This document shows positions 30,073 through 54,451 of a DNA stretch of 64,000 nt, piece by piece. Position numbers and translations under genes: made by a program. This stretch comes from Haloarcula salinisoli (GTDB lineage: Archaea > Halobacteriota > Halobacteria > Halobacteriales > Haloarculaceae). The notes under the pieces were generated by a model. That model did not search any database and was not told the origin of the DNA. It saw nothing but the letters and a program-made list of their open reading frames with translations. The DNA lies in assembly GCF_019599405.1 (NCBI RefSeq), contig NZ_RKLQ01000001.1, positions 806,001-870,000 on the forward strand, written 5' to 3'. Position 1 is the first letter of the stretch; the number at the start of each line of letters is the position of its first letter.

Positions 30073-31011
30073 CTATTCGATGTCCACCGTCACAGCCTCG
30101 CCCCGCACCACGTCGACGAACTCCTCGGGGTGTTCGACGTGGGGGAGCAGGAGTGAGTCGCCAAAGACCACGAGCGTCGCGTCGGCTTCGTCGGCGAGCA
30201 CGCGCCCGTCGGCCAGTGGCGTGATGTCGGCGTCCTCGCCCCAGACCAGGGTTATCGGCACGTCGAGGTCGTCGAGCACGTCGCCCAGGTCTTCCTCGGG
30301 GTCGAGGAACCCGGAGATGAACGAGGCCGGCGCGAAGCGGGCGCCGGGCTGGTGGGCGCTGGTCCACTCGTAGTCGACGACTGCGTCGGTGAGCTTCTCC
30401 ATGTCGTAGTAGCCGTGGTCCGCGTGGAAGTGGCGAATCGAGGCCTTCGAGCCGACGAGGTTGTAGATGGCCTGGCCGAGGACCGGCGCCCGGAGGAGCG
30501 ACCGCCGCGGGACCGACCGGCCGCCCATCGAGGTGTCGGTGGGACAGATAAGAATCAGCTCGGCGATATCCACCTCGCGGGCCGCCATCGCCGCGTATGC
30601 GCCCGAAAGCGAGGAGCCCACGACTGTCGCGTCTTCGCTCTCGTCGGCCAGGAAGTCACGAATGAACGCGGTCATGAGCGACGCGGAGTACAGCAGCGGC
30701 GGCCGGTCCGTGTGGCCAAAGCCCGGCAGGTCCGGCGCGACGACGTGGTACTCCTCGGCCAGCGCGTCGAAGACAGCGTGGAACTCGTGGTTCGAGGCGG
30801 CGGCGTTGATGCCGTGTAGCAGGACGAGGTCGGGGTCGTCGGGGTCGCCGGCTTCGGTGTAGGCCACGTCGAACCCCCGCCAGCGGTAGGTCCGCTGGTC
30901 GCCGTGGAGGAACGGTTCGAACTCGTCGGCGCGCGACTGGAGGACACGGTTCGCCACCGCCGCTGTGCCGACCGCACCGACCGCCGCACCGAGCGCGTTG
31001 CGGAGTTTCAT
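30073..31011 (-). CDS. Alpha/beta hydrolase
   Basis: The 312-residue product starts with a hydrophobic segment ([18 protein letters not shown]) that may anchor it to the membrane. An alpha/beta-hydrolase core follows. The oxyanion-hole motif is [16 protein letters not shown], the nucleophile elbow is [15 protein letters not shown] (Ser in the second position of SLSG), the acidic member lies in [11 protein letters not shown], and the catalytic His is in [10 protein letters not shown]. It probably hydrolyses an ester or related bond; the substrate is unknown. The ATG at 31011 is chosen over an upstream frame that adds 52 Pro/Ser-rich residues without family character. Confidence 0.87.
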
Positions 31012-31138
31012 ACTCGCCTGTAGGAGCGGGAACGTGTTTATACGTGGGGGAGATGTGGATACCTGCGCGGGTTCGAGTCGCTGGACTGCTGTGGCGCTCC
31101 GACACACGCCTGAATTCGACGGCGAGCTGTGACCCCTG

Positions 31139-32821
31139 TTACTCGGTTGACTCGGCGGTCTCGCCATTCGACGCCAGACTGGGCCGGCGCCAGAGATACA
31201 CTGCCCCGACGAGAAGGTTGAGTAGTGGAACCAACGCGGCGACGAGATAGAGCAGGCGATGGCTCGGCCAGTCGGTCACCAACTGTGTCGTTTTCGAGTC
31301 CAAGTAGATGAAAAACGGGATCAGGAGCCAGGTCACGGCCGACGTGAGCCCGGTTACCATCGTGGTAACAAGCAACACGACGGTCAGGGGACCCAGGCCC
31401 GTACCGGTAGCCCCACTCTCAATTAGTATCGTCGCCGTGACGAAGGCGACCACACTCAGTGTAGCGAGAACAGTCGTCGCGAGTATCCACCGCCGCCAGC
31501 CAGTGCCGGGGTCGCAGTCCGTGGACTCATCCTGGTCGGGCTGGGACTGGTCCTCCCGCGTCGTCTGCGTAGTATCACCGGCATCTGTCGACGTTTCACC
31601 GTCAGTATCACCGGCATCTGTCGACGTTTCACCGTCAGTATCACCAGCAGCTGTCTGCGTTTCACCGTCAGTTTGTTCGGCCGTGTCCCCTGAAGCCGGC
31701 TCGATTCCCAGTCTTTTGAGTCGTGTCTCGAACGTGGCATCGGGCCAGAACAACCTATCGAACAGTCTATCGAACAGGCCGATGGAACGACTTGGAAATT
31801 GGATGTTCGTGCCCAGTTGTGGATACACTTCGGCGATAGTCGATGGGTCGAACTGCGATGCGACGAACGCGTCGGCGTCGTATACAATTCGTCTGGCCCG
31901 CCAGGACAGTAGTGGTACTGTAAAAAATAGTGGCAAGACGCCCCAGAACAGCGGGCCCGATATGGTGAACAGCCCGAGGAAAAATGCCGGCCACACGAAG
32001 AACATCAGGACGAGCCCTAGAACTGGCACTGTTACAAGCCAGATGGTTGTAGTCCAGTAGCCGTTGGCTGACCGTTCGTCGACCAGTGCGAGTGCGACTG
32101 CGAGAGTCGTATCGTCGACTCGTTCCAGAAACGACTCGGTGACACCGACCGAGTGATACGCGCCACGACCGCCGACGTTGAGATCGAGTTTGGCCTCCTC
32201 GGCTACGATCACGATCCGACCGGGCGAACGGTCGAACCGTTCGTAACAGCTCTCGATGCGCTCGCGTTCCTCCTCGGTCGGGTCTCGTACCAGACCACTG
32301 TTGAGCGACGGTAGCCGAATGTACAACGTTTGGATTGTGTACACTGTCCACGCGACCGCGCCAGCCATCACGAACCAGGCACCGCTTGCATCCACGACGC
32401 CGAGTCGAATGGTCTCGGCCACGATGGCGAGCGCGAACAGCACCGCAAATACCGTCCGCTGGTGACGACGGCGGAACCGGTCCGGAAGCGTGTACGTGCC
32501 GGGGCGACACGCTTCGGCGACCGGCCCAAAATTGCGTCTGACGATGACCAGGCCGGCGACCGCGACCACCGACGTGACGAGGGCGTTCACCACGACGGCG
32601 ACCACTGTGGACCCGACTGCCGACGCCGCCAGCTGCCCCGGTCCGGCGACGACCGCACCGGCGTACGCGACGACCAAAGTTCCGGAATTGAGCGGGGACT
32701 GGACCAGCCCGATAGCGGTGAACCCAGCGTCGATGCGCTTGAGGACGGCGGCCAGGCCTCGACTCACGAGGAAGAGGCTCCCGAGGAAGACGACAAACCC
32801 GAGTGCTGTCCAGTGAATCAC
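31139..32821 (-). CDS. Membrane protein with degenerate M48 peptidase module (single-module type A)
   Basis: The 560-residue product has about four N-terminal membrane helices, then a soluble segment that follows the M48 (HtpX-like) plan: [20 protein letters not shown], then a strand pair and [20 protein letters not shown]. At the zinc-motif position it reads LALVDER where an active enzyme has HEXXH. Two more helices, an EADRxAA-like position ([12 protein letters not shown]), a Thr/Asp/Glu-rich linker with three 11-residue repeats, and three C-terminal helices complete it. With no metal ligands it cannot be an M48 peptidase in the usual sense. The start is a GTG at 32821. It is divergent from the paralogue at 33071. 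Confidence 0.7.
31572..31670 (-). repeat. 33-bp tandem repeats in linker
   Basis: Three units (31572-31604, 31605-31637, 31638-31670) lie in frame; the first two are identical. They encode an Asp-Thr-Asp-Gly-Glu-Thr-rich linker in the degenerate M48-like protein. Confidence 0.8.
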
Positions 32822-33034
32822 TGTTTAGTGCAACCATATTAAACTCAAAAAATCACTCGGTAACGGCCAGATAAAACGGCTGGACTGGCGGCAGCGCTCG
32901 CGTTCAGAGCGCTCTGTGGATGGTTGTATTGAACCCTCCGTGCTCGGGCCCCTAGACAGTTTCCTCTCTCAGACCCTAAGCTGTAGAAGACGAATTCACA
33001 GTTGGTGTCGTCTATTTATTCCCGGTCAAGCCGT

Positions 33035-33043
33035 GAATTTATC
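33035..33043 (+). promoter_or_regulatory. GAATTTATC promoter box
   Basis: GAATTTATC is centred 32 bases before the ATG at 33071. The same GAATTT(T)A word sits 37-38 bases before the three two-module paralogues (36555-36564, 38967-38975 and 41287-41296, minus strand). Confidence 0.5.
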
Positions 33044-33070
33044 ACCCCAACGAGAGTCCACTCGACCAGT

Positions 33071-34285
33071 ATGCCCGTCGTCCCGGGATTGGTCGCAGCA
33101 GCGATTCTGATAGTCGGACTGTTCACCTTCGGTCGTCTCGTCGGGTGGTGGCTCGGGCGGTCCGAAGAGATTACGCCGAGACAGAGATCCGTCTTTGACA
33201 TATTAGTAACATTGGTGCTGCTGTTTTTGATGGTCGGCGTCCCAATGTTGTACCGGCTGTTTCCGGTCGGCTACGCACTTTCTCCGTCGAAGTCGTTATT
33301 CGTTGGGTCGTTACTTACTGCCGCCATCTCGACCACTGTCGCTGTCCTCGGTTTCGGTGGGGCACTGCTGGGTCTGCGTCCGTTTCTATCAGACCGAATG
33401 CAGGTCAGGGGTGAGTTGTGGCGGCGAAACCGGATCGTTCTGGGCGCCTGGGTCGGTATAATACCCTTTGCCGCTATGGCGATAGAGTTGGGAGTTATCT
33501 ATGCAGAACGGCAACTCGGCGTGCTCGTCGCGGTGCCGATAGTCGTCTTTGCTGGCTTGTACCTCAGTGGGTTCGTTGCGTTGCCGGCGCACTGTCCGGT
33601 TATTCGGTTCGGCATTCGGCGGCCGACGGCGGAGGAACGTGACCGAATCGAGGCCATCTACGAGCGATTGGATATTCCACTCCCGAACAGTATCGAAATC
33701 ACCGTCGACGACGATAACGAACGACTGGTCGTGGTAGACAACGACGACGAGCGTGTCCTCGCACTCAGTGATTCACTGTTGCCTGCTGTCGACGACGATA
33801 CCCTGGCGGTCGCTATCGCCCACTCCGAGGGGCGAGCGAGACACGATACGAGTTTCTTCGAGAAGCTCTGGATGGGTAACTTGGTCCTGGCTACCGTTCT
33901 CTACGTCTGGGCCTTCTCCATGCAGTTGTTCTATAACGACCTGTCGACAGAACTTGTTCAAGGAGCGGTGGTTTTGCTATTGCTAATTGTATTCGTCAAT
34001 GTGTTACTATCTTCCTGGAACCGGACTCGGATTTACCTGGCTGACGAATACACCATCGAACACACCGTTCGGTCGTGTGTCACGGCTGTCTACCGCAACT
34101 CCGACGAACGGCTCGGCTGCATCCAGCGACGGCGCTCAGTCGGAAACGACTTGATCAACAGCGTATTGAATAAGTTGGTTCCGGAGCCACAGATGAAACA
34201 TCGGCTCGAACATATCGGACTCGAAGAGGCGAGCAACCCGCCACACTCGGACCAGCAGGGTGGGGACCCGGATAGCATAGCATAG
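33071..34285 (+). CDS. Membrane protein with degenerate M48 peptidase module (single-module type B)
   Basis: The 404-residue product has four or five N-terminal helices (VVPGLVAAAILIVGLFTFGR and later), then the M48-like segment: FGIRRPTAEERDRIEAIYER, a strand pair, and ALSDSLLPAVDDDTLAVAIA followed by HSEGR where HEXXH should be, so only the first His survives. Two further helices, a position equivalent to the EXXXAD motif (YLADEYTIEH), and the terminal MKHRLEHIGL, which parallels the 'HPPxxxRIxxL' end of M48 enzymes, follow. It is closely paralogous to the gene at 42002. I use the ATG at 33071 because the other paralogue begins identically (VVPGLV) and a TATA box fits. Confidence 0.72.
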   Translation: MPVVPGLVAAAILIVGLFTFGRLVGWWLGRSEEITPRQRSVFDILVTLVLLFLMVGVPMLYRLFPVGYALSPSKSLFVGSLLTAAISTTVAVLGFGGALLGLRPFLSDRMQVRGELWRRNRIVLGAWVGIIPFAAMAIELGVIYAERQLGVLVAVPIVVFAGLYLSGFVALPAHCPVIRFGIRRPTAEERDRIEAIYERLDIPLPNSIEITVDDDNERLVVVDNDDERVLALSDSLLPAVDDDTLAVAIAHSEGRARHDTSFFEKLWMGNLVLATVLYVWAFSMQLFYNDLSTELVQGAVVLLLLIVFVNVLLSSWNRTRIYLADEYTIEHTVRSCVTAVYRNSDERLGCIQRRRSVGNDLINSVLNKLVPEPQMKHRLEHIGLEEASNPPHSDQQGGDPDSIA

Positions 34286-34322
34286 AGCTACCCGATAGAG
34301 ATAGTACTCTGCCTGGTAGACC

Positions 34323-34392
34323 CCGACGAACTTGGCGCATCGCTCGATCCGCTCCCCGGAAGCTGGGTAGCGATATCCGCAGCTACTGAGGA
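34323..34392. repeat. Duplicated 3' flank, copy 1
   Basis: This non-coding stretch and the adjoining coding sequence are nearly identical to 36728-36798 and what follows. The word CGCATCGCTCGATCCGCT and the run GAAGCTGGGTAGCGATATCC are shared. It marks a segmental duplication of about 2.4 kb. Confidence 0.8.
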
Positions 34393-36522
34393 CTACCGAT
34401 TGTCTGAGTCCGGAAGGCGGGCCAGCCGTGCTTTGATCGGCGGATGGGGGGCCAGACCGGTTCGCCAGGTGAACGTCGACGAGCGCTTCCGTTCGATGTG
34501 TGACCCGACGGTGCCGAAAGCTTCTCGGACGGTGTCACTGCCGAAGCGCTCACAGAGTCGACTGTCGATTCGATAGAATCCAGCGGCATAGCGGCGGTTG
34601 TAGAACAGTATCACCGGCAAGAGGAGTAGCCCGGCGACCCCCACGACGGGTGCGACCCCGCTGTTGGCCAGTGCCAGCTCGACGGCGTATCCGAGTACCA
34701 GGGCGCACAGCACCCACAAACAGAGTAGAAACCGTCCGTTCGGAGTGAGCTCTCGCCCTCGCTCGTACCCCTCGGCGATTGCGACCGCGAGATGACTATC
34801 GTCGCCGGTCTCGAACAGGGAGGTCGCGACGTGGAGCGTCCGGTGTGTGTCGTCACCGGTGACGAAGACGTCCCAGGGCCACAGCTTCCTGTATACACGC
34901 ACCTCGTCGATAGTATCGTACTCGGCGTCGAGGAGTGGCTGCAAGCGGTCGATTTCCTCCGAGGTCGCTTCTCTGCCGTAGCGGGAATACAGGTGGAGTA
35001 GATACTGATCCCGGTAGGATAGGCCGGTGGCGATGAGGAGCAGCGCCGTCAGACAGAGCCAGAACAGTGAGAAGGACCCGTTGACGACGAGGTCGATGAC
35101 GAGGAGGCTGCAGACGACAACTACGGGGAACTCCCAGCGGGTGTTGATCCCAGTCCGACCGGACGCTGGGAGACTGTCGACGGGCGATCCGCGCCGGCTG
35201 TACACTACAAGCAGCGGGACCAGGGCGGCGAAGACGCCGAAGAGGGCGGAAGACGGTCCGACGAGCCACGTCGAGGCGGGTCCGGATACGTTGTCGGCTG
35301 CCAGCGCGACCGGACGGAGCAGGAGATTACCGACCCAGATGCAGACTGTAATGAAGATTGCCAGGGACCAGTAGGTGACGTCTGCGAGACGGCTCTCCTC
35401 GATACTGTCGCCACCAAGTCGGTCCAATCGACGTGCAAGCGGCAACTCCGTCGTGCCCGAGGCATCTGAGTCATCGTGGTCAATTCCACCATCCATGATG
35501 AGCCAGCCGCCGAGGGCACGGTACGTCCGACGCACGGCTGTGATTCCGAGGTGGCGACTGGCGAAATCGTCCGCGGCAGCGAACGACCACTGTGATAGTT
35601 TCCCCACCAGTCCGATGCACACCAAAAGCCCGGTCACGAGCAACACAAGCGGAAGCAGTGGGGCCTGAAACGCTGTGATACCGATGTCCAATGCCTGGAG
35701 TGCCAACGTGTTCACTGTCGCCAGACTGAACAGGATGAGCAATGCCACCATTGTCTGGTTAGCTACAGTGTATAGGTTCGCGAACGGGCTCCGATGTGTC
35801 GCCTGGGCGAACGCGACGGCCAGTTCGTCGTCAGTGGCGACGTCGAGTAACTCCTCGTGGACGTACGTCAGCCGCTGCCCGAACGAGTTCGTGACGAACA
35901 CAGCAGGCGCTTTCGGATTGGCGTTATCGTCAAGGGAGAAGACGACACTTGTTCCCGGAGACGAGTCGAACGCCTCGAAACAGTTCCGGATGCGGTGCGC
36001 CTCCTCGTCGGTCGGTGACCGATATCTGTCGGCCGGTCGCCGACCACCGTGGAGAATCTTGAACGCGGCGACACTCACCGGAATGAGCGTACTAATCGCC
36101 AGAAGCGGAATGATACCGGCGATAAAAAGCCCAACAGCCGCGGCGAGTGGTGCGTAGATACCGATGCCAATGGCAGCTATTGTCCGCGTCCCGTATCGAA
36201 TAGCGTCGGCCTCGATATCACCAGTGTCGGTGCCGTTTCCGACACGATAGGCGGCGAGCCCGAGGGCTGCAGTAACGGTGGTACCGACAGCGTACACGGC
36301 TGCCGACAGCAGTGGTGACGACGGGCCGACCAAGAGCGTCGGTATCGCGAAGAAGCTGAAACCGATTCCCGGTACGAGGAAGACGAGGAACTGGAGCCCC
36401 ACTGTCAAGCGCATCCGGGTCGTGTGGCTCACTTTTGTTACAACTCGTCTGCGCCCGTAGCCGGCAGCGAGGGCTCCGACGGCGTATAGGAATAAGAAGC
36501 CGACGAGAGTCGGTGTATCCAT
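34393..36522 (-). CDS. Two-module degenerate M48-like membrane protein, copy 1
   Basis: The 709-residue product contains two M48-like modules, each wrapped in membrane helices. Module 1: YRSPTDEEAHRIRNCFEAFD, then VFVTNSFGQRLTYVHEELLD, with AQATHR at the zinc-motif position. Module 2: SEEIDRLQPLLDAEYDTIDE, then TLHVATSLFETGDDSHLAVA, with IAEGYER at that position. Neither has HEXXH. The end, LAPHPPIKARLARL, matches the M48 family's C-terminal 'HPPxxxRIxxL'. The ATG at 36522 lies 38 bases after a GAATTTTATC box. The gene is about 2.4 kb from a near copy with the same 3' flank. Confidence 0.72.
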   Translation of the reverse strand: MDTPTLVGFLFLYAVGALAAGYGRRRVVTKVSHTTRMRLTVGLQFLVFLVPGIGFSFFAIPTLLVGPSSPLLSAAVYAVGTTVTAALGLAAYRVGNGTDTGDIEADAIRYGTRTIAAIGIGIYAPLAAAVGLFIAGIIPLLAISTLIPVSVAAFKILHGGRRPADRYRSPTDEEAHRIRNCFEAFDSSPGTSVVFSLDDNANPKAPAVFVTNSFGQRLTYVHEELLDVATDDELAVAFAQATHRSPFANLYTVANQTMVALLILFSLATVNTLALQALDIGITAFQAPLLPLVLLVTGLLVCIGLVGKLSQWSFAAADDFASRHLGITAVRRTYRALGGWLIMDGGIDHDDSDASGTTELPLARRLDRLGGDSIEESRLADVTYWSLAIFITVCIWVGNLLLRPVALAADNVSGPASTWLVGPSSALFGVFAALVPLLVVYSRRGSPVDSLPASGRTGINTRWEFPVVVVCSLLVIDLVVNGSFSLFWLCLTALLLIATGLSYRDQYLLHLYSRYGREATSEEIDRLQPLLDAEYDTIDEVRVYRKLWPWDVFVTGDDTHRTLHVATSLFETGDDSHLAVAIAEGYERGRELTPNGRFLLCLWVLCALVLGYAVELALANSGVAPVVGVAGLLLLPVILFYNRRYAAGFYRIDSRLCERFGSDTVREAFGTVGSHIERKRSSTFTWRTGLAPHPPIKARLARLPDSDNR

Positions 36523-36534
36523 TGTCTCGTAGTA

Positions 36535-36699
36535 CTGTTCAGATCCTTTCGCCAGATAAAATTCGCGATAGAAGCGGACGAATTATGCGCTTCTTGGGAC
36601 GAACAAAACCGGAACGACGGGTTCAGCGCTGCCTTTGAATTACCGTTCGAGGAGCGTCTCGAACATATCGGGCTCGCAGACGTAGGTACCTCAATGTAA
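36535..36699 (+). pseudogene. C-terminal remnant of an M48-like paralogue
   Basis: One plus-strand frame reads RSFRQIKFAIEADELCASWD, continues without a stop through FSAAFELPFEERLEHIGLAD, and ends at a TAA at 36697-36699. The first part aligns with SWNRTRIYLADEYTIEH of the intact gene at 33071 and the last with its MKHRLEHIGL end. The catalytic half is missing. The EAD of this fragment is closer to the active-family EXXXAD motif than in any intact neighbour. Its position relative to the leftward gene copies mirrors that of the 33071 gene, so it is probably the decayed second copy. Confidence 0.5.
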
Positions 36700-36727
36700 T
36701 CAGCCCGTTGAGAAGCGAATTCCGACA

Positions 36728-36798
36728 CCGACGAACGTGGCGCATCGCTCGATCCGCTCCCCCGGAAGCTGGGTAGCGATATCCGCAGCTACTGACGA
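36728..36798. repeat. Duplicated 3' flank, copy 2
   Basis: This is the partner of 34323-34392; the two differ by a few bases and one added C. The similarity continues into the 3' ends of both two-module genes. Confidence 0.8.
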
Positions 36799-38934
36799 CT
36801 ACCGATTGTCTGGGTCCGAAAGGCGGGTCAGCCGTGCTTTCATCGGTGGATGGGGGGCCAGACCGGTTCGCCAGGTGAACGTCGACGAGCGTTGCCGCTG
36901 GACAGACGGCTCGAGACTGACGTATGCCTCATGGACGGTCTCACTGCCGAAGCGCTCACAGAGCCGTCCATCGAGTCGGTGGAAGCGAGCGGCGTAGCGC
37001 CGGTTGTAGAACAGGATAACTGGCAACAGAAGGGCCCCGGCGACCCCGACGGCGGGCCAGACCGAACTTCCGGCCACGAACAGGAAGACACTATACCCCA
37101 TGACCAGCGGACACAGTGCCCACAGGGAGAGAAGGAACCGGCCGTGTGGGCTGAGTTCCCGCCCCCGCTCGTAGGCCTCGGCGAGTGCGACGGCGAGGAG
37201 GGTATCGTCGGTGGTTTCGAGCAACGAACGTTCGACGTAGAGCCTCCGGTGGGTGTCGTCACCGGTGACGAAGATTTCCCACGGCCAGAGATCCTCGCAC
37301 ACCAGGATCTGGTCGATTGAATCGGCCTCGGTGCCGAGACAGGACCGCAAACGGTCGGCCTCCGCCGCTGATGGGTGCTCGGGAGAGCGTGAAGCTATGT
37401 ACGAATAGTACTGATGGCGGTAGGACAGGCCGGTGGCGAAGAGCAGCAGAACGGCCAGGGCGAGCCAGAAGAAAGACAGGTGCCCATTGAGGACGAGGTC
37501 GGTGACGAGCAGACTGCAGACCACCACGACGGGGAGTTCCAATCGGGTATTGATCCGTGACCGGGCGGCCGAGGGGAGACTATCGACGAGCGACCCCCGG
37601 CGGCGGTACGCGACGAGCAACGGCACCGCGGCGAGTACGAGGCCGACGAGAGCGGAAGCCAGCCCGACGAGCCACGTCGGTAGTGTGGCGGACATACTGT
37701 TGGCGGCCAGCGAGACCGGACGGACGAAGAGGTTGCCCAGCCAGATGCCGACTGCCAGCGAACCTGCGAAGAACCACTCCGTGACAGCCACGAGCTGGGT
37801 GTCGTCGATCAGGCTCCCACCCAGACGCTCGATTCGCCGGACCAGTGGCGGTTCACTCATCGCCGACGCGTTCGGATCGTCGTGGTCTATCTCGGGGTCA
37901 GTGACAAGCCAGTCGCCGAGGGCACGGTATGTCCGACGGACTGTGGTGGTCCCGAAGTGTCGGCAGGCGAAATCGTCCGCGGCTGGGAACGACCACTTCT
38001 CCAGTCTCGCCAGTAGTAGCAGGAACACGAACAGCCCGGTCACAAGGAATACGAGCGGGACCAGCGGGCCCTGAAGCTCTGAAACGCCGACGTCGAACGC
38101 CCACAGAGCCAGCGTGTTCAGTGCTGCTAGGAAATATACGCCGACCAGGACCGCCAGATGCTCTCTGAGGACAGTGAACGCGTTCGCGAACGGACTCCGG
38201 TGTGTCGCCTGGGCGAAGGCGACGGCCAGTTCGTCGTCTGTGGCGACCTCGAGCAACTCCTCGTGGACGAAGGTCACTCGCTGTCCGAACGAGTTCGTGA
38301 CGAAGACAGCAGGCGCTTTCGGAGCGTCGGTATCTTCGAGGGAGAAGACAGCAACCGTCCCGGGCGACGAGTCGAACGCGTCGAAGCAGTCCCGTATGCG
38401 GCGTGCCTCCTCATCGGTCGGGGACCGATAACTGTCGGCTGAACGGGTGCCACCGTCGAAAACACGGAGAAGGCCCATTCCGAGCATGATGGCTGTGACG
38501 ACAATCAGAACTGAGACGAAGTCGAACCAGGCTAGAGCGACAACCGCGACCAGCGAGGCGTATATAGTGAAAACGAGGCCAACTCGTAGTCGCCGGCGCG
38601 ATCGGTACAAATCCGCGAAATAGTCACGACTATCCCTGCCGAGGCGGCATCCAAGATTATACGCGGCAGCCCCGAAGACTGCAGTGACGGTGACACCTAC
38701 GGTGTACACAGCTACCAGCAGTAGTGGTGACACGTCGCCGACCAGTAGTCGGGGTACACCGAGACCACTAAAAGCGAGCGGTGGCATCAAAAGTAAGCAT
38801 CCCACGGCCATACCTCCTAATTTCTCCCCAGCCCCGGAGCGTCCTTCCGTCACAAGCTGCTCAGAGCCGTATCCACCTGCGAGGATGACGCAGACGTACA
38901 GCAGCAAGAATCCGGCGAGAGTGGGTATCCCCAT
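36799..38934 (-). CDS. Two-module degenerate M48-like membrane protein, copy 2
   Basis: The 711-residue product is a close paralogue of the protein at 34393 along its whole length. Module 1 has RSPTDEEARRIRDCFDAFDS, VFVTNSFGQRVTFVHEELLE and AQATHR at the zinc-motif position. Module 2 has AEADRLRSCLGTEADSIDQI, YVERSLLETTDDTLLAVALA and EAYER. About ten membrane helices are spread over both halves. The end LAPHPPMKARLTRL is conserved. The promoter word GAATTTATG lies 37 bases before the ATG at 38934. The 3' flank is duplicated with copy 1. Confidence 0.72.
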   Translation of the reverse strand: MGIPTLAGFLLLYVCVILAGGYGSEQLVTEGRSGAGEKLGGMAVGCLLLMPPLAFSGLGVPRLLVGDVSPLLLVAVYTVGVTVTAVFGAAAYNLGCRLGRDSRDYFADLYRSRRRLRVGLVFTIYASLVAVVALAWFDFVSVLIVVTAIMLGMGLLRVFDGGTRSADSYRSPTDEEARRIRDCFDAFDSSPGTVAVFSLEDTDAPKAPAVFVTNSFGQRVTFVHEELLEVATDDELAVAFAQATHRSPFANAFTVLREHLAVLVGVYFLAALNTLALWAFDVGVSELQGPLVPLVFLVTGLFVFLLLLARLEKWSFPAADDFACRHFGTTTVRRTYRALGDWLVTDPEIDHDDPNASAMSEPPLVRRIERLGGSLIDDTQLVAVTEWFFAGSLAVGIWLGNLFVRPVSLAANSMSATLPTWLVGLASALVGLVLAAVPLLVAYRRRGSLVDSLPSAARSRINTRLELPVVVVCSLLVTDLVLNGHLSFFWLALAVLLLFATGLSYRHQYYSYIASRSPEHPSAAEADRLRSCLGTEADSIDQILVCEDLWPWEIFVTGDDTHRRLYVERSLLETTDDTLLAVALAEAYERGRELSPHGRFLLSLWALCPLVMGYSVFLFVAGSSVWPAVGVAGALLLPVILFYNRRYAARFHRLDGRLCERFGSETVHEAYVSLEPSVQRQRSSTFTWRTGLAPHPPMKARLTRLSDPDNR

Positions 38935-39125
38935 GAGTTCGTACAGTCAGTTCGGAAACCGAGGCACATAAATTCATGGACATTTTGCAAGAATAATATT
39001 CCGTCCTGCCACCGTACGTCCGTGGGTCCGAGGCGGGACTCGACCACGGCTGGGACACCGCCGTACCGAAGCCCGTCGCAGATTCCGTCGTGCAGACGTG
39101 CCCGGCGATATCCGGTCGGCAGCAG

Positions 39126-41255
39126 CTACTCCGGTTGTCGTCCGTCGGATTCGGGAAGCCGGGCGATCCGTGCCGCCATGGACGGATACGGGGCCAGACC
39201 GAGCCGCCAGGCGTGTCGGAACGACCGGTCGTTTTCGATCCACGACCCGACAGTGTCGTATGCGCCACGAACCGTCTCGGTACCGTATTGGTCACAGAGT
39301 CGCGTATCGATGCGGGAGAACCGGCCGGCAATATGCCGAAGGCAAACCATCACCACCGGTATAGCGAGGAGACTGACGACCACTACACCGATGGCCAGCG
39401 GGCCGTAGCTGCCGCGGGTGAGCGTCTCGACCAGCACTAGCAGCCACACCACGAACAAAAAATACATAACTCTGCCGCTGGCGCCGAGTTGTCGACTCCG
39501 CTCGTCTGCCTCCGCGAGTGTGACTGCGAGGTTCGAATCGTCACTGATGTCCAGCACGCCCTCCTCGATATGGAGCGTCCGATGCGTGTCGGTACCGTTC
39601 ACGAAGACACTGTACTGCTTCAGCGTGTCGTGGACGTGAATCCGGTCGACCGATTCGGCCGCCCCACCGAGACAAGAGCGTAGACGGTCTGCTTCCGCCG
39701 CGGACGGTGGCCGTGAGGTCCGGGATTTCACGACCGGGTCGTACCGACTTCGGTAGTTCAGGCCGGTGAGGAGCAGACTCAGGACGGCCACGGCGAACCA
39801 AAAGAAGGAGAGATAGCCAGTGACGACGAGTTCGGTGACGACTATACTGCAGACCACCACCAGGGGGAACTCCCAGCGAGTGTTTAGCTCCGCCCGCATG
39901 GCTGGTGGAAGGGTATCGATGAGCGACCCGTGGCGGCGATACACGACCAGCATCGGAATCGCAGCCAATGCGACGCCGACGACGGCGGATGCCACGCCGA
40001 CGAGCCACGCCGGTAGTGTAGTGGACAGCGGGGCCGCGACCGGACGGACCAGGAGATTCGTCACCCAGAGGGCGGCTGCCAGCATGACCGCGAAGAGCCA
40101 CCCGGTGGTAGCTGCGAGATTGGTTTCCCCAGTTCGGTCCCCGCCAAGGCGGTCGATTCGACGGACCAGCGGCGGTTCCATTCCGCCCGACCCGGTACGG
40201 TCATTGTGGTCGATTTCGGGGTCCACAACGAGCCAGTCGCCGAGAGCACGGTACGTCCGACGGACGGCGGTGGTCCCGAACTGCCGACAGGCGAAATCGT
40301 CTGCGGCGGTGAACGACCACCGGGACAGTGACGACGTTACCCGATGACAGACGACCAGACCAACCAGAACCAACAGGAGCGGGAGGACTGGCCCCCGTAG
40401 CGCCGTGATTCCGATATCGAACGCCCACAGAGACAGCGTGTTCAGTGTCGCCGGGATGTACAGGAGACCCAGCAGTTCCAGCGTCGACGAGGCGGCAGCC
40501 AACACGTGCGTGGACGGACCCCGATAGGTCGCCTGGGCGAACGCGACGGCCAGTTCGTCGTCCGTGGCAAGGTCGAGTAGGTCCTCGTGGACGTAGGTCA
40601 GTCGCTGCCCGAGCGAGTTCGTGACGAAGACTGCAGACGGTTGCGGACTTTCGCTGTCTTCGAACGTACAGACGACGACGGTGCCCGGAGTAGCGTCAAA
40701 CGTATCGAAACAGTCCCGGATGCGGCGTGCCTCCTCGTCGGTGGGGGACCGATACGCATCGGCTGGCCGGCTGCCACCGTGCAGAACCCGGAGGAGACCG
40801 AGCCCCACGATGACCAGCGTGAGGACGACCAGGAGGGAGACGAATCCGCCCCTGAACAGCCCGTAAGCCGCGACGAACGAGGCGTACATCCCGATGCCGA
40901 TAGCAACCAGTGCCCGTATGCGAGTCCTGTAGCGGCCGACGTAGCGCTCGGTATCGTCGTGGCCGAGACGGATTCCGGCTCCGGCGGTGCCGAGCCCGAC
41001 GAGTGCAGTGACGATAACAGCCACTGTGTACACGGCCACCAGTTGCAGGGGCGATGTCGCACCAACTATACGGATGGGTACGTCCAAGATGGAGAGACCG
41101 ATAGCCGGTACCAGAAAGAGGAGACCGCTGATGACGAGTATAGTCTGGTCACGGAGCCGACCGTCGACAACAGTCGAATTTTGTCCAAGCCTGTACCCGA
41201 TAGCGAGGGATCCGCCGAGGTACAAAAGCAAGAAAGCGCCGAGGGTATGAATCAT
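39126..41255 (-). CDS. Two-module degenerate M48-like membrane protein, copy 3
   Basis: The 709-residue product is more distant from the other two copies but colinear. Module 1 has YRSPTDEEARRIRDCFDTFD, VFVTNSLGQRLTYVHEDLLD and AQATYR at the zinc-motif position. Module 2 has SAAEADRLRSCLGGAAESVD, LHIEEGVLDISDDSNLAVTL and AEADER. The end LAPYPSMAARIARL has lost the first conserved His. I choose the ATG at 41255 over a GTG five codons earlier, because it restores the shared N-terminal pattern (IHTLGAFLLLYLGG against DTPTLVGFLFLYAVG) and the GAATTTTACA box is then 37 bases upstream, as in the other copies. Confidence 0.72.
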   Translation of the reverse strand: MIHTLGAFLLLYLGGSLAIGYRLGQNSTVVDGRLRDQTILVISGLLFLVPAIGLSILDVPIRIVGATSPLQLVAVYTVAVIVTALVGLGTAGAGIRLGHDDTERYVGRYRTRIRALVAIGIGMYASFVAAYGLFRGGFVSLLVVLTLVIVGLGLLRVLHGGSRPADAYRSPTDEEARRIRDCFDTFDATPGTVVVCTFEDSESPQPSAVFVTNSLGQRLTYVHEDLLDLATDDELAVAFAQATYRGPSTHVLAAASSTLELLGLLYIPATLNTLSLWAFDIGITALRGPVLPLLLVLVGLVVCHRVTSSLSRWSFTAADDFACRQFGTTAVRRTYRALGDWLVVDPEIDHNDRTGSGGMEPPLVRRIDRLGGDRTGETNLAATTGWLFAVMLAAALWVTNLLVRPVAAPLSTTLPAWLVGVASAVVGVALAAIPMLVVYRRHGSLIDTLPPAMRAELNTRWEFPLVVVCSIVVTELVVTGYLSFFWFAVAVLSLLLTGLNYRSRYDPVVKSRTSRPPSAAEADRLRSCLGGAAESVDRIHVHDTLKQYSVFVNGTDTHRTLHIEEGVLDISDDSNLAVTLAEADERSRQLGASGRVMYFLFVVWLLVLVETLTRGSYGPLAIGVVVVSLLAIPVVMVCLRHIAGRFSRIDTRLCDQYGTETVRGAYDTVGSWIENDRSFRHAWRLGLAPYPSMAARIARLPESDGRQPE

Positions 41256-41563
41256 CAGCAGTACCTCCACGTGGGGAACTCCTGTATGTAAAATTCACGT
41301 TGATATGAAATGAAAAGTGCTGGATTCCGGACGATCGGATGGCTGCGACGCGTCACCGCCGGGTTGTTCGAAGACACCCGGGTAGAGAACGACGCTGGAA
41401 CGTCAAACGAGAAACCTAGGCCCTCGCGTTGGTTCGCCCAGTTTGCGGAGCTCGCATCATGCCCCGGGGGCGGAGGGGTTCTTTCCGAGGCCCATTACAA
41501 CATTCATCATTATTCGCAAGATCATCGGGCCCCTGGATATGACGGCACTTACGAAGCCCTATA

Positions 41564-41785
41564 TCAGGCCCCGATTGTCCCGGCACTGATGCTGAACGGC
41601 CATCCGAAGATAGCAATGGCGATGACGATAATGACGATGATAGCTATGAGTACCCATTCGATGAGGCGCAGTTCACCGATAATCGGTAGTTCTATCGGGA
41701 CCTTCTTGGGTAGATTCTCCTCGGCCGCCAGGTAGTTTTGAGAGAAGCTGGCCTTGACAGCGGCGACGAGGTCGCTGGTGGCGAC
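41564..41785 (-). pseudogene. Start-less remnant of a small membrane protein
   Basis: A 73-codon frame reads SFSQNYLAAEENLPKKVPIE, then a hydrophobic helix (WVLIAIIVIIVIAIAIFGWP) and a short tail, ending at the TGA at 41564-41566. It contains no ATG, GTG or TTG, and a TAG precedes it, so as it stands it has no start. It lies in a 746-base gap (41256-42001) that otherwise holds no frame with haloarchaeal codon character. I do not recognise the family. Confidence 0.35.
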
Positions 41786-42001
41786 CTATCTGCTGCCTGT
41801 ATCCGTCTGTCTCTGTACCACGACAGTGGGTCCGGCGGGTGTTGATTGGGGTTCGACCGTCGAGACGAGGGAACCCGCTCGAGTAGCGAAAGATTTTAGC
41901 CGTGGATACGTCGAGCTGTTCGCCTCTGAACTCTTAGCAGGAGGGTAATTTTGATAACATGGGTGTGTTTATTACGTCCCCGTTGTTAGAATATAATAAC
42001 G

Positions 42002-43207
42002 ATGAGTGTTGTCCCAGGACTGGTCGGGACAGGGATACTGATAGTAGGATTGTTCGCCCTCGGCAGGATTCTGGCATGGTGGTTCACCCAATCCGACGGT
42101 CTCACAGCGAGACAGCGGTCGGTTCATGACAATCTGACGTTTCTCGTTCCTGTGGCTGTTATGATTGCGGTGCCAGCACTGTTCTCTATCGGCGACGAAC
42201 TGCTCGGTACGGGGCCGAATCTGGCGACGGCACTGCTGAATAGCGCGATCGCGACGGCTGTTGTGGTCATTGGTCTGGCTAGCGCAATGCGCGGATTCAG
42301 GCCGTTTATCTCGACTCTCCCGATGGTCGAGGGGGAACTCTCGCGGCGGCGCTGGAGAGTGACGGTCTTTCAGATTGCTTTGATACTCTTCGTCGCCGTG
42401 GTCATCGAACTGGGCGCCCTGTACGCAGCGACGCCGGCCTCAATTGCCATCGGGGTTGTACTAATAGCATCCATAGGCTGGCTCTCCAGTGAAATTTTCG
42501 CGTATCCATCGATGTGTCCGTCTATCCGGTTCGGTATTCGTCGGCCGACGACAGCGGAGCGCGACAAGATCGAACAGGCGTATGACCGGCTGGATATCTC
42601 GTTCCCGGACGGTATCGAAATCACAGTCAACAACGACGCAGAACGCATGGCGGTGTTGGAAAACGGCGACCAGCGATTCCTGGCTTGCAGTGACTCGCTG
42701 CTGTCGTCTGTCACCGCCGACACACTGTCGGTTGCCATTGCTCACGCCGAGGGACGGGCTGCTCACGGGTTAAGTCCGCTACAGAAGGCAAGAGGCTGGA
42801 CCCAAATGTGGACTCTCGTTGTGGGTATCTGGGCCGTGTTCGCCGCTGGGATCGATACCGGACTGGGTGGTGCGTTCAAGATCTGGACAGCCGTGCTCGT
42901 TACACTGCTGATACTCGTCACCCTGCTGATTGCATCGTGGAGTCAGGAACGGGTTCACTTAGGCGACGAGTACACTGTCGAGCACGCCGCCCCGTCGGCC
43001 GTCGCAGCTATCTATGGGAACCCCGAGAAGCGGCCACGGTTTCTACACCTTCGGGATGACTTCGACAAAGACCTCTTGAACGCTACGTTCGGGAAGTTGT
43101 TTACAGAGCCGACGATGAACGAACGGCTCGAACATCTCGGTCTCGGAGACAATAGCAGAGACGGGCAGACAGACCTGGATGCAACAAACCCCGACAACTC
43201 CGCGTAG
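42002..43207 (+). CDS. Membrane protein with degenerate M48 peptidase module (single-module type B, second copy)
   Basis: The 401-residue product is a paralogue of the protein at 33071 with the same start (SVVPGLVGTGILIVGLFALG), the same first soluble block (FGIRRPTTAERDKIEQAYDR), and SDSLLSSVTADTLSVAIA followed by HAEGR where HEXXH is expected. The later VHLGDEYTVEH and MNERLEHLGL blocks are also shared. About seven membrane helices are likely. A TATA-like TGTTTATTA lies about 32 bases before the ATG. It closes the array and is followed by an AT-richer gene of different character. Confidence 0.72.
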   Translation: MSVVPGLVGTGILIVGLFALGRILAWWFTQSDGLTARQRSVHDNLTFLVPVAVMIAVPALFSIGDELLGTGPNLATALLNSAIATAVVVIGLASAMRGFRPFISTLPMVEGELSRRRWRVTVFQIALILFVAVVIELGALYAATPASIAIGVVLIASIGWLSSEIFAYPSMCPSIRFGIRRPTTAERDKIEQAYDRLDISFPDGIEITVNNDAERMAVLENGDQRFLACSDSLLSSVTADTLSVAIAHAEGRAAHGLSPLQKARGWTQMWTLVVGIWAVFAAGIDTGLGGAFKIWTAVLVTLLILVTLLIASWSQERVHLGDEYTVEHAAPSAVAAIYGNPEKRPRFLHLRDDFDKDLLNATFGKLFTEPTMNERLEHLGLGDNSRDGQTDLDATNPDNSA

Positions 43208-43384: not shown

Positions 43385-46312
43385 CTATAATTCTGGGGAC
43401 GGAAGCGCATCGGCCCAGCCTTCATCAAGCAGGGAAGACTGAGACAGTGAAACTGTCAGCATCATAGCAAGAAGGGCATATGCTGGTGCATATGCTGTAA
43501 TGGCAGGCCCGGGACCGGTCGCCCCTTCTACAAAGGGATAGCTGCCGGCAAGAATCCCAAGTGCCAAACCTACAAGGAAAGCAGTGCAAATCCAGAAGGC
43601 CTCCTCGATACTATTTTTAAGTACATCAAGGATGTTCGGGAAAGTAATCTCTGGTATTTCGATTTCAGCATCTGGCCCTTCAACGGTTCTCACCCAGCGT
43701 GCTATTACGTCGCTTGGGGTGGTGACTGGCTCGTAGAGATTCCTATTATTATTTTGACAGTGGAACCTGCCACAGATTGCACTTCCCTCGATATACCGGA
43801 CGAATTCGGTCACTTTCGCGAGCAGTCTAGCACGCTTCGACCGCGTATATGTCGCCATGTTAGCATACTCCACGAGTTTCTCGCAGAGTTGACCGGCCAC
43901 GGTTAGAATGTGGGTGCGAATAATTTTGCTCAGAAGGGTATTCGCATCGTCATAAATAGACTCGAGAGTCTCATCGGATTCAATGGCCTGCGTTACCCTA
44001 TCAGGGACCAGATCTTCTTCCCGAGAATCCGGGATATCCTCGTTAATAAAGTTTACAATCTGTTGTAACTCCTGAGCATCTGCACAGAGGAAATCTATAT
44101 GCACCGAACCCCAATCAATTGGCTCTTGTGTCAACCCGTCACCGCTGTCGCCGATGATTTCGAGAACTCCCGGGATGTCGTCATTGTTGACATCGCTGTC
44201 GGAGACAACGTTTTGATGTAACACAGCGAATGCCGTATAGATAGATTCGGAGCCGGCATCGCCACTGGGTTCAGTTTGCGACTCTTCGATCTGCTCCTGT
44301 GTGTCGGGCTCATCGCCACTACTGAGTTCAGATTTCAACTCGTCTATCTGCCCCTGTGTGTCGGACTCGTCGTCACCTAGTGCGAAGGTCCGCCAGCTAT
44401 TGATACTATCGTACGAAAAGGTGAACTCGTCGGGGGCATCGTCGCTGTCCGTCGTGGTACTGAACGAATAGGTATCTGCTATCATATCCTCAAGGTCTCC
44501 GGTCATTCCGTCGGTGAAATCAAACTCATTCTCTGTTCGATTAATAATCTCGTCAAGTGAAGAGTCCAATGTATTATATAGGGTATTAATATTCGTTTTG
44601 ATATCTTTGACCGTCGGTACGTCGCTCTCTGAATCAGTCGTTTCGGTATCTTCGACCGCCGACATATCTCTCTGTGAATCATTCGTTTCGACATTTCTGA
44701 CCGGCGACGCCAAGCTCTGTGAAGTGTTCGGAAGTTCTTCAACATTATCACAAAACAGGTATTCAGAGGTATTACTGACACTTTGGAGCACATTCGTCCA
44801 AAGTTGTTGATGCAGGTACAGTGACCAGGTGATTTGGGCTTCAAGAACGCTGTATAGATGTTCGGCGTACTGGCCAGCTCCGATACTCAAGTCCGCGCCT
44901 CCGTAAAGACATCCATCGTTCCCCTGGCCGAAGAACAGAACCGTGGATGGGTCTGTGGGCTTCACCTCGTCTGCTTTGACGACATCACTCATCGAAATCT
45001 TGACACCGACCGTTCTAACGTAACCGCCTGGAGCAGCCGGGCAGGGTTTTATCGGGTCAGCGTCGTATGAACCAAAACCTTCGTATTCTCCGTTCACAGC
45101 TTCGCTGAGGACCACTCCTGTAGTGTCCTCTGCGAATTGTCTGGAACTTTCCCATGTTGAATTGTCAATGTCAACTAACTCCCCACAGATGTCTGGACGT
45201 GAAGGCGTTCCAACGTTTGGGTAAGATGGGCCGGAATATCCAACCTCCAGCTCAGACCGGTGTAGCGTAGCTTTCCTGTCACCGAAAGGTACAGTATCTT
45301 CATACGGGGTTTTCGAGGTGCCCTCTTCCGAGGCATCTCCGTACGATTGACTTGCCTCGCTTTCGCTCTCGGACGACGGCGCTTGCGATGTGCTGAAGCC
45401 ATCATAGCCCTCAATCGAATCGGAAGACGATCCAATTTCGTCTTCAACTGCCTCATCAAACGATTGGACGAATACATTCAGATCTGAAACATCAAAGGGT
45501 GCGGTAACGTTGAATCCATCATTTAGCACGCTATCAATATTTTCTGGTTCAGTCGATAGGAGATCCTCAATTGGGTTAAGTACACTAGAAATCTCATCTA
45601 GGAACTCATTTACAGCGTCTTCAATTGCTATGAACGGTGACTTTATAATATCGGCGAGTTCGTCGGAATCGTAGTATTCGTCGATATTGGGGATCTGATC
45701 TTGTAGATCACTCCAGACCTCTTCAAGCCCCTTTGTAAGGTTCTCGTAATGCTTTGTTGCTTCATTTATCGCTTGGTTCCAGATATTGTGTGAACCAGCG
45801 GACGATGGCACAGCGCTTGACCCGCCCTTACTGTTCGCTACCCGACTCCCGACGATTTCTACCGGCGTAGAAGATATAGTATTATTACCGGAATCACCCC
45901 CATTGTCAGGGTCTACACCGAGCACGTCTTGGATGGTCTCCATATGCTCATTGAGCCATCGGAGAGCGTCTACTCTTGTTGGAACGGATGCAAGCAGTGC
46001 CGAAAGATCATCGTATATATTATAGAAGTCATCTAATGTAGCCCCATATCCGTCTGTAAGATCTCCATATATTCGGTCAAAGAACCTATCCTGTAAAGAA
46101 TCTTTCATTACCTGAGTGATATCTTCCGCATCGAACTCCCAGTCCTCTTCACTCGGTTCCTCCCCAAACTGGTTATTTTCCAGATTGCTTGCTGCTGCTG
46201 TCTGATCTGTAAAGATAGACTGCATTCCCGCGAACAGTCCACCACTGCCGAGTGCGTTCAGAAGGGACCGTCGAGAAACCCCATCCGAATTGAACGAGTT
46301 TCTATCGTTCAT
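43385..46312 (-). CDS. Large Tat-exported acidic protein, function unknown
   Basis: The 975-residue product starts with a twin-arginine signal (Arg14-Arg15, SRRSLLNALGSGGLFAGM). A very long polar, Asp/Glu/Ser-rich region follows with many short helices and few aromatics; stretches such as SQSYGDASEEGTSKTPYEDT look disordered. Two hydrophobic helices lie near the C-terminus (FWICTAFLVGLALGILAG and ITAYAPAYALLAMMLTVSL). It is clearly more AT-rich in base and codon use than most neighbours, which suggests acquisition. TATA-like AAATATAAAAC precedes the ATG at 46312. I recognise no domain. Its membrane-anchored exterior placement and position beside a propeller gene suggest a surface machine, without proof. 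Confidence 0.65.
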   Translation of the reverse strand: MNDRNSFNSDGVSRRSLLNALGSGGLFAGMQSIFTDQTAAASNLENNQFGEEPSEEDWEFDAEDITQVMKDSLQDRFFDRIYGDLTDGYGATLDDFYNIYDDLSALLASVPTRVDALRWLNEHMETIQDVLGVDPDNGGDSGNNTISSTPVEIVGSRVANSKGGSSAVPSSAGSHNIWNQAINEATKHYENLTKGLEEVWSDLQDQIPNIDEYYDSDELADIIKSPFIAIEDAVNEFLDEISSVLNPIEDLLSTEPENIDSVLNDGFNVTAPFDVSDLNVFVQSFDEAVEDEIGSSSDSIEGYDGFSTSQAPSSESESEASQSYGDASEEGTSKTPYEDTVPFGDRKATLHRSELEVGYSGPSYPNVGTPSRPDICGELVDIDNSTWESSRQFAEDTTGVVLSEAVNGEYEGFGSYDADPIKPCPAAPGGYVRTVGVKISMSDVVKADEVKPTDPSTVLFFGQGNDGCLYGGADLSIGAGQYAEHLYSVLEAQITWSLYLHQQLWTNVLQSVSNTSEYLFCDNVEELPNTSQSLASPVRNVETNDSQRDMSAVEDTETTDSESDVPTVKDIKTNINTLYNTLDSSLDEIINRTENEFDFTDGMTGDLEDMIADTYSFSTTTDSDDAPDEFTFSYDSINSWRTFALGDDESDTQGQIDELKSELSSGDEPDTQEQIEESQTEPSGDAGSESIYTAFAVLHQNVVSDSDVNNDDIPGVLEIIGDSGDGLTQEPIDWGSVHIDFLCADAQELQQIVNFINEDIPDSREEDLVPDRVTQAIESDETLESIYDDANTLLSKIIRTHILTVAGQLCEKLVEYANMATYTRSKRARLLAKVTEFVRYIEGSAICGRFHCQNNNRNLYEPVTTPSDVIARWVRTVEGPDAEIEIPEITFPNILDVLKNSIEEAFWICTAFLVGLALGILAGSYPFVEGATGPGPAITAYAPAYALLAMMLTVSLSQSSLLDEGWADALPSPEL

Positions 46313-46407: not shown

Positions 46408-47766
46408 TCAGGCATCAGGGTCATCAAGATTTAATGTGTCGTCAATTGTCGATTCTGTGTCGCTTTCCTCTGACTCTTCGTCACTGTCTAATGCTTTTTT
46501 TCCGAAAAAGTACCCCATGAGCGCAACGGTGGATCCACCGGCACCAAGAGCCCACGGCGATATTCCATCTTCGTCTCCGTTCGGCCCAGAACTATCCGTC
46601 CCTGCTGTGGTTGTCTTGGTGCTGCTACCAGGTGTGATAGTGGATGAGTCAGTCCTGTTACCTTGCTCGTTTGGTGATGGGTTCTGGTTGGAAAGCGTAC
46701 TTACCTGAGTGTGGTACCCGAAAGACTGATCTTCGGTTCGTGAACCATCGCTTGACGCGTCTGTCCCAGCGTTGAGCGCATAGAGCATTCCGTCGTCACT
46801 CCCGACGAACATCACGCCGTCGACGACTGTCGGCGAAGACAGCATCCGCTCCTCACTCTCGGAGTGGAACGTCCACTCGTACTCCTCGCTGTCGAGGTTG
46901 ACTGCATATATATCACCTAGCGACGTGCAGAAAAACACCGTTCCACCAGCGACGGTTGGTGAACCAAACACGTTCCCAGTGCCTGAAACCCACTGTTCCT
47001 TACCATTGTTCGTATCGAGACACGCGACGGCGCTCGGGCCCCGCGCGAGACCGATATAGAGCGAGTTCTCATATACCGTCGGTGTCGATTCAATCTTGGA
47101 CTCTCTGCCGTGGGTCCACTCGATAGTCCCGTCTGTCCCGTCGACAGCGTAGACTGTACCGTCCTCCGCGGCGAAATACAGCGTTCCCTCGTGTTCGGTC
47201 GGTGTCCTCACAGCATCTGACGGCTCCGTCAAGACCCACTGCTCCTGGCCGTCGCTCGTCGATATCGCGTAGAGTTCACTGCCGCTCCCGATGAATATCT
47301 GTCCGTTGATGGCGATCGGTGACGTCTCTATCTGGGACCCCGTCTGGAACGCCCACTGTATCTCTCCCGACTCCGCGTCAATCGCGTACAACTTACCATC
47401 GTGCATCCCGACGTATATGGTTTGCTGGTACAAGAGGGGCGACGAATTTAGGCCGCCAAGTGTGTACCCGCCATCTATTGAGATAGACCAATCTTCTTCT
47501 CCGGTTGATCGATCCAGTGCGGCAAAGTACCCAAAGTTATTCACGGCGTAAACGCGGTTTTTGTCGATCGCGGGACTGGTAAGGATGCCACCGTTTGGTA
47601 GGCGTGCGTCCCATTGATTTCGGCCAGCAGATACGCTGACTGCATGAACTCGACTTCTGAGATTGCCAAAGAACACCGTCCCACCGGCGACTGTCGGTGA
47701 CGACCGAATCCGCCCCGGTGTTTCGTATTTCCAGTGTAGCTCACCCTGTTCGGTTTCATTTAGCAT
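46408..47766 (-). CDS. PQQ-type beta-propeller repeat protein with C-terminal anchor
   Basis: The 452-residue product has about seven to eight repeats of the PQQ/BamB type, each with a G(G)TVFFG or GSxLYA(I/V) strand and a closing Trp: HWKYETPGRIRSSPTVAGGT, IQWAFQTGSQIETSPIAING, IEWTHGRESKIESTPTVYEN, YEWTFHSESEERMLSSPTVV. A Ser/Thr-rich linker follows, then one membrane helix (WALGAGGSTVALMGYFFGKK) and an acidic tail. No N-terminal signal peptide is present although the C-terminal helix suggests an exported protein. A GGGGGAGGGG stretch precedes the ATG at 47766 and may be a ribosome site. It probably scaffolds protein-protein contact; enzymatic PQQ use is not implied. Confidence 0.82.
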   Translation of the reverse strand: MLNETEQGELHWKYETPGRIRSSPTVAGGTVFFGNLRSRVHAVSVSAGRNQWDARLPNGGILTSPAIDKNRVYAVNNFGYFAALDRSTGEEDWSISIDGGYTLGGLNSSPLLYQQTIYVGMHDGKLYAIDAESGEIQWAFQTGSQIETSPIAINGQIFIGSGSELYAISTSDGQEQWVLTEPSDAVRTPTEHEGTLYFAAEDGTVYAVDGTDGTIEWTHGRESKIESTPTVYENSLYIGLARGPSAVACLDTNNGKEQWVSGTGNVFGSPTVAGGTVFFCTSLGDIYAVNLDSEEYEWTFHSESEERMLSSPTVVDGVMFVGSDDGMLYALNAGTDASSDGSRTEDQSFGYHTQVSTLSNQNPSPNEQGNRTDSSTITPGSSTKTTTAGTDSSGPNGDEDGISPWALGAGGSTVALMGYFFGKKALDSDEESEESDTESTIDDTLNLDDPDA

Positions 47767-47941
47767 ATTCCGTACCCCTCCCCCGAGCGAACACAACCAT
47801 GATTGTGGTATTTAACAACGCTGCAAATAAGTATTTTGCGTTTGATTAGATGTTATATTTTACAAGATAAATATATGAATGCAAATACATCTTGTGGTCG
47901 CTAAAAAAAGACAGGCACTCCGTATGGCTTAGATATCAGGT

Positions 47942-52377: not shown

Positions 52378-52490
52378 ACGTTAAGTTCATTCCCACCGTT
52401 CTGTCGCGGCCCGGGTTGGAGTTGCCAGACGACGACAGTCTCAGATTTATGCGTATATTTCCTTTATTTAGCAGTATTAAAATTTTCCTT

Positions 52491-53993: not shown

Positions 53994-54451
53994 GCTTCCC
54001 AGGCGCTGACTCGAAGACGGCCCGTGGTGACGTTCCCGGGCGCGTATCGTATCGAGATTGGTCGTTCAGTCGTCGTGGCTCCATCTGGTGGACCCTCGAC
54101 AGCCGAGTCGCGGTCCGCGGCGTATCTCGCTTCTTTTATCACTACCTTCCTCCCGTCGGAGGCCACCGTCTCTACCTGTACCACCATATTGAACCCGGCC
54201 GGAATCGATTCGTTCTCTATCGTCTTGTTGAGCGGCTTTGACGACACGTTGTAGGCTCCGTCGGTCTCCATGTCTTCCCAGACCCGTTCGAGCGTCTGGT
54301 CACCGACTTCACGGTCGGAGGAAGACGAGACCACGTCGACGACAGTACCCCCGTACATACTTAGTGCAACCGCCAATATGGCGACGGCTAACAGTGCTGC
54401 AAGCGGCTCTGTCTGGCCGCGAGTCTCCTCACGCGGCGACGAAGGTAACAC
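53990..54451 (-). CDS. Pilin-like protein (DUF7285-like)
   Basis: The 153-residue product begins LPSSPREETRGQTEPLAALL with a membrane helix (AALLAVAILAVALSMYGGTVV) right after it and an acidic exterior domain (YNVSSKPLNKTIENESIPAG; FNMVVQVETVASDGRKVVIK). 'RGQTEPLAALLAV' is the typical start of archaeal pilin-like proteins of this operon type. The start is a GTG at 54451 inside the 3' end of the preceding gene (23-base overlap); a longer frame would add 50 Arg-rich residues that are a shadow of that gene. It overlaps the peptidase gene by four bases. Confidence 0.72.
   Translation of the reverse strand: MLPSSPREETRGQTEPLAALLAVAILAVALSMYGGTVVDVVSSSSDREVGDQTLERVWEDMETDGAYNVSSKPLNKTIENESIPAGFNMVVQVETVASDGRKVVIKEARYAADRDSAVEGPPDGATTTERPISIRYAPGNVTTGRLRVSAWEA

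Follow-up and report, generated by a model that had tools for sequence, protein, structure and literature searches.

Six clustered genes in a 64,000-nucleotide stretch of the Haloarcula salinisoli genome (the window) encode membrane proteins with the layout of M48 peptidases in which the HEXXH motif is missing. The locus raises the question of where such an array came from and what its proteins may do without a zinc site. In this work, we analyzed the relation of these proteins (P1 to P6) to active M48 enzymes, the state of their zinc ligands, their relatives in Halobacteria, the history of the array and the selection acting on it.

Results

Nine M48-like modules in six genes

The six open reading frames described in a first-pass annotation of this DNA are all present (Table 1), and their similarity to one another, well beyond chance, marks them as homologues. 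A 12-row alignment together with hmmsearch located nine modules in the six intact frames, one each in P1, P2 and P6 and two each in P3, P4 and P5, so that the proposed fusion of two modules in three genes was borne out. P3, P4 and P5 are full-length paralogues with 49-58% identity, P2 and P6 share 43% identity (E 1e-93), and P1 is a more distant member, 23-34% identical to the other array proteins (E 1e-6 to 1e-17). Beyond its module, P1 continues with an acidic low-complexity linker and a second hydrophobic domain at the C-terminus; this C-terminal part contains a near-perfect 11-residue repeat and, after it, a separate domain with about four membrane helices, neither of which was seen in other array members. 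Judging from the alignment, the start codon of P2 is probably the ATG at 33071 and not the TTG at 33002.

Table 1. Location of the array genes, associated segments and other features of the insertion within the window
Feature	Position	Strand	Description
Alpha/beta hydrolase gene	30073-31167		insertion flank
Species-specific insertion	31054-57943		about 26.9 kb, between the alpha/beta hydrolase gene and meaB
P1	31139-32821	-	560 aa; one dead M48 module, motif LVDER
P1, C-terminal part	31139-31650	-	11-residue repeat and separate membrane domain
P2	33002-34285	+	427 aa; single dead M48 module, motif HSEGR
75-bp segment, copy 1	34319-34392		downstream of P3; 95% identical to copy 2
P3	34393-36522	-	709 aa; two dead M48 modules, QATHR and EGYER
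Remnant of a P2/P6-type gene	about 36598-36699	+	C-terminus FELPFEERLEHIGLADV...; weak alone, supported by position
75-bp segment, copy 2	36724-36798		downstream of P4
P4	36799-38934	-	711 aa; two dead M48 modules, QATHR and EAYER
P5	39126-41270	-	714 aa; two dead M48 modules, QATYR and ADER
P6	42002-43207	+	401 aa; single dead M48 module, motif HAEGR
Tat-signal protein gene	43385-46312	-	975 residues
PQQ propeller and DUF genes	46408-54601	-	PQQ-type propeller protein, then DUF7286, DUF7284 and DUF7285 proteins
Gluzincin-like protein gene	52491-53993	-	500 residues
meaB	57931-58959		insertion flank

Descent from M48 peptidases

None of the six array proteins passed the Pfam threshold, the best PF01435 score being 16 bits against a gathering score of 20.3 (P4, E 0.011; P2, E 0.069), and none had a significant match in NCBIfam. 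These searches would fit membrane proteins unrelated to M48 that acquired a 'DDxLAxAxA' helix by chance, a reading to which we give next to no credence, as such a convergent resemblance is largely refuted by the profile-profile, Foldseek and PF01435 evidence. For the nine array modules alone, set against a profile of nine active M48 peptidases from haloarchaea, hhalign returned a probability of 96.9% with E 1.9e-10 over 184 columns, and 98.3% with E 2.3e-14 once 19 named relatives were included; three separate M48 landmarks are in register in the profile alignment, ExxxD and HPPTxxRIxRL among them. Besides, a singleton dead relative matches PF01435 by itself at E 8.5e-6. Of the three active M48 genes that the host genome encodes, a dead-module profile (the array plus three relatives) found C6:37368 at E 3e-11 and C2:54829 at E 1e-6, genes with PF01435 E values of 8e-36 and 1e-41, respectively.

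The AlphaFold2 model of P2 (28-row alignment) had a pLDDT of 78 and a pTM of 0.74, with values mostly of 85-97 in the core formed by the strand pair and its flanking helices. In Foldseek, human ZMPSTE24 chains made up the six best solved matches of this model (probability 1.00, E 1e-4 to 1.7e-3), Staphylococcus aureus BlaR1 (M56) came next and the HtpX domain 3cqb was also listed (E 1.2), so that the top matches were all membrane gluzincin peptidases. The low confidence in the arrangement of the membrane helices accounts for the modest TM-scores (0.40), and the full-length model of a two-module protein was poor (pLDDT 59). Taken together, the profile comparisons and the P2 model indicate that the array modules descend from M48, as had been guessed from sequence patterns; this descent and the predicted fold of the single module are both well supported.

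Loss of the zinc site

The nine motif strings given in the first-pass annotation align on the HEXXH of active M48 peptidases, and the zinc ligands are absent as a set in all nine array modules, in none of which HEXXH is intact. Ligand positions were read from an alignment with seven active enzymes and counted in 46 dead modules, made non-redundant at 80% identity. The first zinc His is retained in just three of the 46, P2 and P6 among these, and the position of the catalytic Glu is Glu in 10/46 and in none of the array modules. In the HSEGR of P2, for instance, the first His is kept, the catalytic Glu is replaced by Ser and the second His by Arg. This second His position is never His: Arg occupies it in 36 of the 46 modules and in 9/9 of the array, with Lys in four, Gln in five and Ile in one of the remainder. 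The third ligand, a Glu in active enzymes, is Glu in 0/46, being replaced by V, I, F, R, L, Y or T (I, V or F in the nine array modules). Four residues further on, the Asp of ExxxD is Asp in 46/46. No alternative HEXXH was found, and where isolated HxxxH strings occur, in three modules, they are at other places. The conserved Arg at a zinc-ligand place and the fully conserved Asp suggest, as a hypothesis, that the two residues pair in the emptied site; in P2 they are R278 and D348, numbered on the 427-aa frame. The array proteins may also perform some other, zinc-free reaction.

Single-copy relatives in Halobacteria

A profile search of 292 Halobacteria genomes gave matches in 226, a count that includes active M48 genes; in the loci fetched, matches above 50 bits lacked HEXXH and those below 45 bits had it. 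The dead relatives are singletons of about 370 residues, with one module and one gene per locus and not in tandem, exemplified by those of Haloarcula pellucida, H. argentinensis, H. japonica, Haloferax sulfurifontis, Halorubrum persicum and Halobellus rufus. Judging neighbours by eye from their sequences, the Haloarcula singleton lies between the aEF-2 gene and a gene for an ACT-domain protein with homoserine dehydrogenase, while in other families singletons stand beside hisG and an amidohydrolase gene, near the aIF2-gamma gene or elsewhere. In three plasmid records a zinc-less M48 singleton is annotated 'peptidase'.

The host genome has its own singleton dead M48 gene, before an amidohydrolase gene. 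Here and at a locus of another family, the dead M48 singleton lies directly upstream of the amidohydrolase gene on the same strand (L155:1583-2743 and 2695-4068; L070:7652-8794 and 6282-7580). The amidohydrolase looks MTA/SAH deaminase-like by eye, and the two genes possibly form a conserved pair that hints at function.

The first-pass annotation had taken the array for a system without a described counterpart. This holds for the tandem two-module arrangement, which was not seen elsewhere, but single-copy relatives lacking the zinc ligands are spread widely over Halobacteria. Surveyed more closely, P4-type two-module proteins were not found in the other 145 genomes of the host family, and single-protein searches did not find the array in genome contigs, viral contigs or plasmids, nor, with P2, in phages.

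Origin and duplication of the array

A tree was built from 51 rows, 44 dead and seven active, the active rows being all haloarchaeal. A branch supported at 100/100 parts the dead modules from the active ones, and within the former the nine array modules group (97/95) with four sequences of another family of the order (f7), two of which are the nearest to P1. Support is 100/100 for each of three groups, P2/P6, the P3-5 N-half and the P3-5 C-half; several branches are long. Since the modules of the array and those of the singletons share one clade, to which none of the sampled active M48 enzymes belongs, the simplest reading is that the zinc site was lost once, before the array arose, and the nine dead motifs need not be counted as nine independent losses, for which we found no support. 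The simplest reading of the grouping with f7 is that the array genes came from outside Haloarcula, from another haloarchaeal family; among 61 genomes of f7, arrays were not found and one or two scattered copies per genome were present.

The remnant gene reported earlier is real but small. Its reading FELPFEERLEHIGL resembles the ends of P2 and P6, weakly by sequence (E 0.39), and it occupies a place and frame equivalent to the end of P2: after P2 and after the remnant alike, the 75-bp segment follows and then P3 or P4 on the opposite strand. The pair of 75-bp segments is the apparent trace of a duplication or gene conversion, and the last parts of P3 and P4 are unusually similar to each other (92-98% against about 70%). 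This shared segment, the arrangement and the similar ends point to the duplication of a unit made of a P2-type and a P3-type gene, the ends of which would have been converted later or duplicated a second time. In another haloarchaeal genome (L077:8127-10573), a dead M48 gene adjoins a second copy broken into two frames, so that small tandem duplications of this family occur elsewhere.

Selection on the array

Pairwise dN/dS values (Nei-Gojobori) were 0.41 for P3/P4, 0.48 for P3/P5, 0.48 for P4/P5 and 0.36 for P2/P6, with dS between 0.76 and 1.37, so that selection on the array, presumed earlier from the retained fold, is purifying. In P3-P5, pN was 0.10-0.14 over residues 161-240, which in the first module run from the lead helix through the strand pair to the pseudo-active helix, and 0.35-0.44, about three to four times higher, in the N-terminal membrane helices. 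Fold stability by itself could account for the conservation of this slow-evolving core.

A species-specific insertion

The array lies on an insertion that is absent from related genomes: the alpha/beta hydrolase gene adjoins meaB in six other Haloarcula genomes, with acyl-CoA genes on both sides and the order kept, and a gap of 41 bp separates the homologous flanks in the closest relative, against 26.9 kb (31053 to 57944) in the host. In 2-kb windows, GC is 0.49-0.62 inside the insertion and mostly 0.63-0.69 in the flanks. No integrase and no direct or terminal repeats that would explain the insertion were found, nor any tRNA in the 64-kb window, and the neighbours of the array indicate no pathway.

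Discussion

The array shares with M48 enzymes, both HtpX (M48B) and Ste24/ZMPSTE24 (M48A), the membrane helices around a strand pair and an active-site helix, the placing of ExxxD where a membrane helix ends and the HPPTxxRIxRL tail. It differs from them in having neither HEXXH nor the third zinc Glu, in carrying Arg at the second His and in consisting of proteins that individually fall below the Pfam cut-off. The haloarchaeal singletons labelled 'peptidase' belong to the same family and share the loss of zinc ligands, the Arg and the Asp, whereas they have one module and one gene per locus, do not occur in tandem and represent a branch other than that of the array modules. BlaR1 carries an extracellular penicillin-binding sensor and is active as a zinc protease. 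It and MecR1 (M56), the second-best group of fold matches, resemble the array as membrane-embedded gluzincins, serving in sensing in their case; unlike BlaR1, the array has no penicillin-binding sensor. Other parallels are the pseudometallopeptidases (PMC11266112) and the iRhom-type pseudoproteases, inactive homologues that are retained for binding or regulation. The review of inactive metallopeptidases mentions neither M48 nor gluzincins nor archaea (PMC11266112), HtpX homologues are treated as proteases in a review of Haloferax membrane proteases (PMC9263693), and our search of the open-licence literature found neither inactive M48 homologues nor an archaeal dead M48 family described.

We consider it probable that the array is a local, lineage-specific expansion of haloarchaeal M48-derived pseudopeptidases, polytopic proteins with the HtpX/Ste24 fold that bind, but do not cut, client membrane proteins. 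The zinc site would have been lost once in an ancestor and rebuilt metal-free, with the second His changed to Arg, the third Glu to a hydrophobic residue and the Asp kept. The old substrate chamber might then take up partner proteases or membrane-protein clients, which would be held or regulated but not cleaved, and duplication together with the fusion of two modules would diversify the membrane part around a fixed pseudo-active core. More speculatively, and with rather low confidence, these may be membrane receptors derived from M48 proteases, in which the Arg-Asp-rebuilt site binds or switches and the nine modules form a set with divergent membrane parts. If this were true, the array would be a repertoire of differing client or ligand specificities.

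Other explanations may be weighed against this pseudopeptidase expansion. The array proteins could be regulators, either inhibitors or adaptors or dominant-negative subunits, in mixed complexes with active HtpX-type M48 enzymes, as in the case of rhomboid pseudoproteases. The three active M48 genes in the same genome and the constraint on the fold and on the surface round the old active site fit such a role; the active M48 genes, however, are co-located with neither the array nor the singleton loci read, and single-copy dead relatives exist in many species with no obvious partner gene, so that we regard it as a possible but doubtful alternative. A bank for immunity or decoy purposes, made of accessory, diversifying membrane proteins that give protection from halocins, toxins or viruses acting on membrane proteases, seems still less likely to us. 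Several diverged paralogues with fast membrane parts, a remnant gene, converted flanks and the location on a lower-GC insertion specific to the species are what such a bank might look like, but dN/dS is purifying and not positive, the proteins match no PADLOC defence model at E 0.01, no PHROGs viral family over threshold and nothing in viral contigs or phages, and no toxin or halocin gene was seen beside the array.

As for the array being a set of functionless, pseudogenising duplicates, the remnant and the loss of the enzymatic motif would be expected. Against this stand six full-length frames of up to 714 codons, the retention of dead singletons across Halobacteria, and dN/dS values of 0.36-0.48 with constraint tightest at the lead and pseudo-active helices of the first module. 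Decay is unlikely on these values and on this constraint around the former active-site helix, and we judge it very improbable overall.

The pseudopeptidase reading extends the concept of pseudopeptidases to an archaeal M48 family, none of which appears in the review cited above. Going by its residues, this family, which occurs across Halobacteria and is called 'peptidase' in annotated examples, cannot be an M48-type zinc peptidase, and because the zinc ligands are lost, these labels should be changed. With its small group of paralogues in a genus that can be cultured, the array is suited to testing whether a membrane protease fold can serve a purpose other than proteolysis.

Additional genes were observed on the insertion. 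Beside the array, at a GC of about 0.49, lies the gene of the 975-residue protein, whose N-terminus is of the Tat type and whose C-terminus has membrane helices; it has no real Pfam match and is absent from 31 other Haloarcula genomes. The PQQ-type propeller gene and the DUF7284/7285/7286 genes are a predicted haloarchaeal envelope or pilus-like cluster, inserted with the array. The gluzincin-like protein at 52491-53993 lacks a Pfam match and has a signal-like N-terminus, a hydrophobic C-terminus and an intact motif, HEYVH...WLDEGTAQYY, from residue 271; it is a probable active, exported zinc peptidase of a family for which there is no model.
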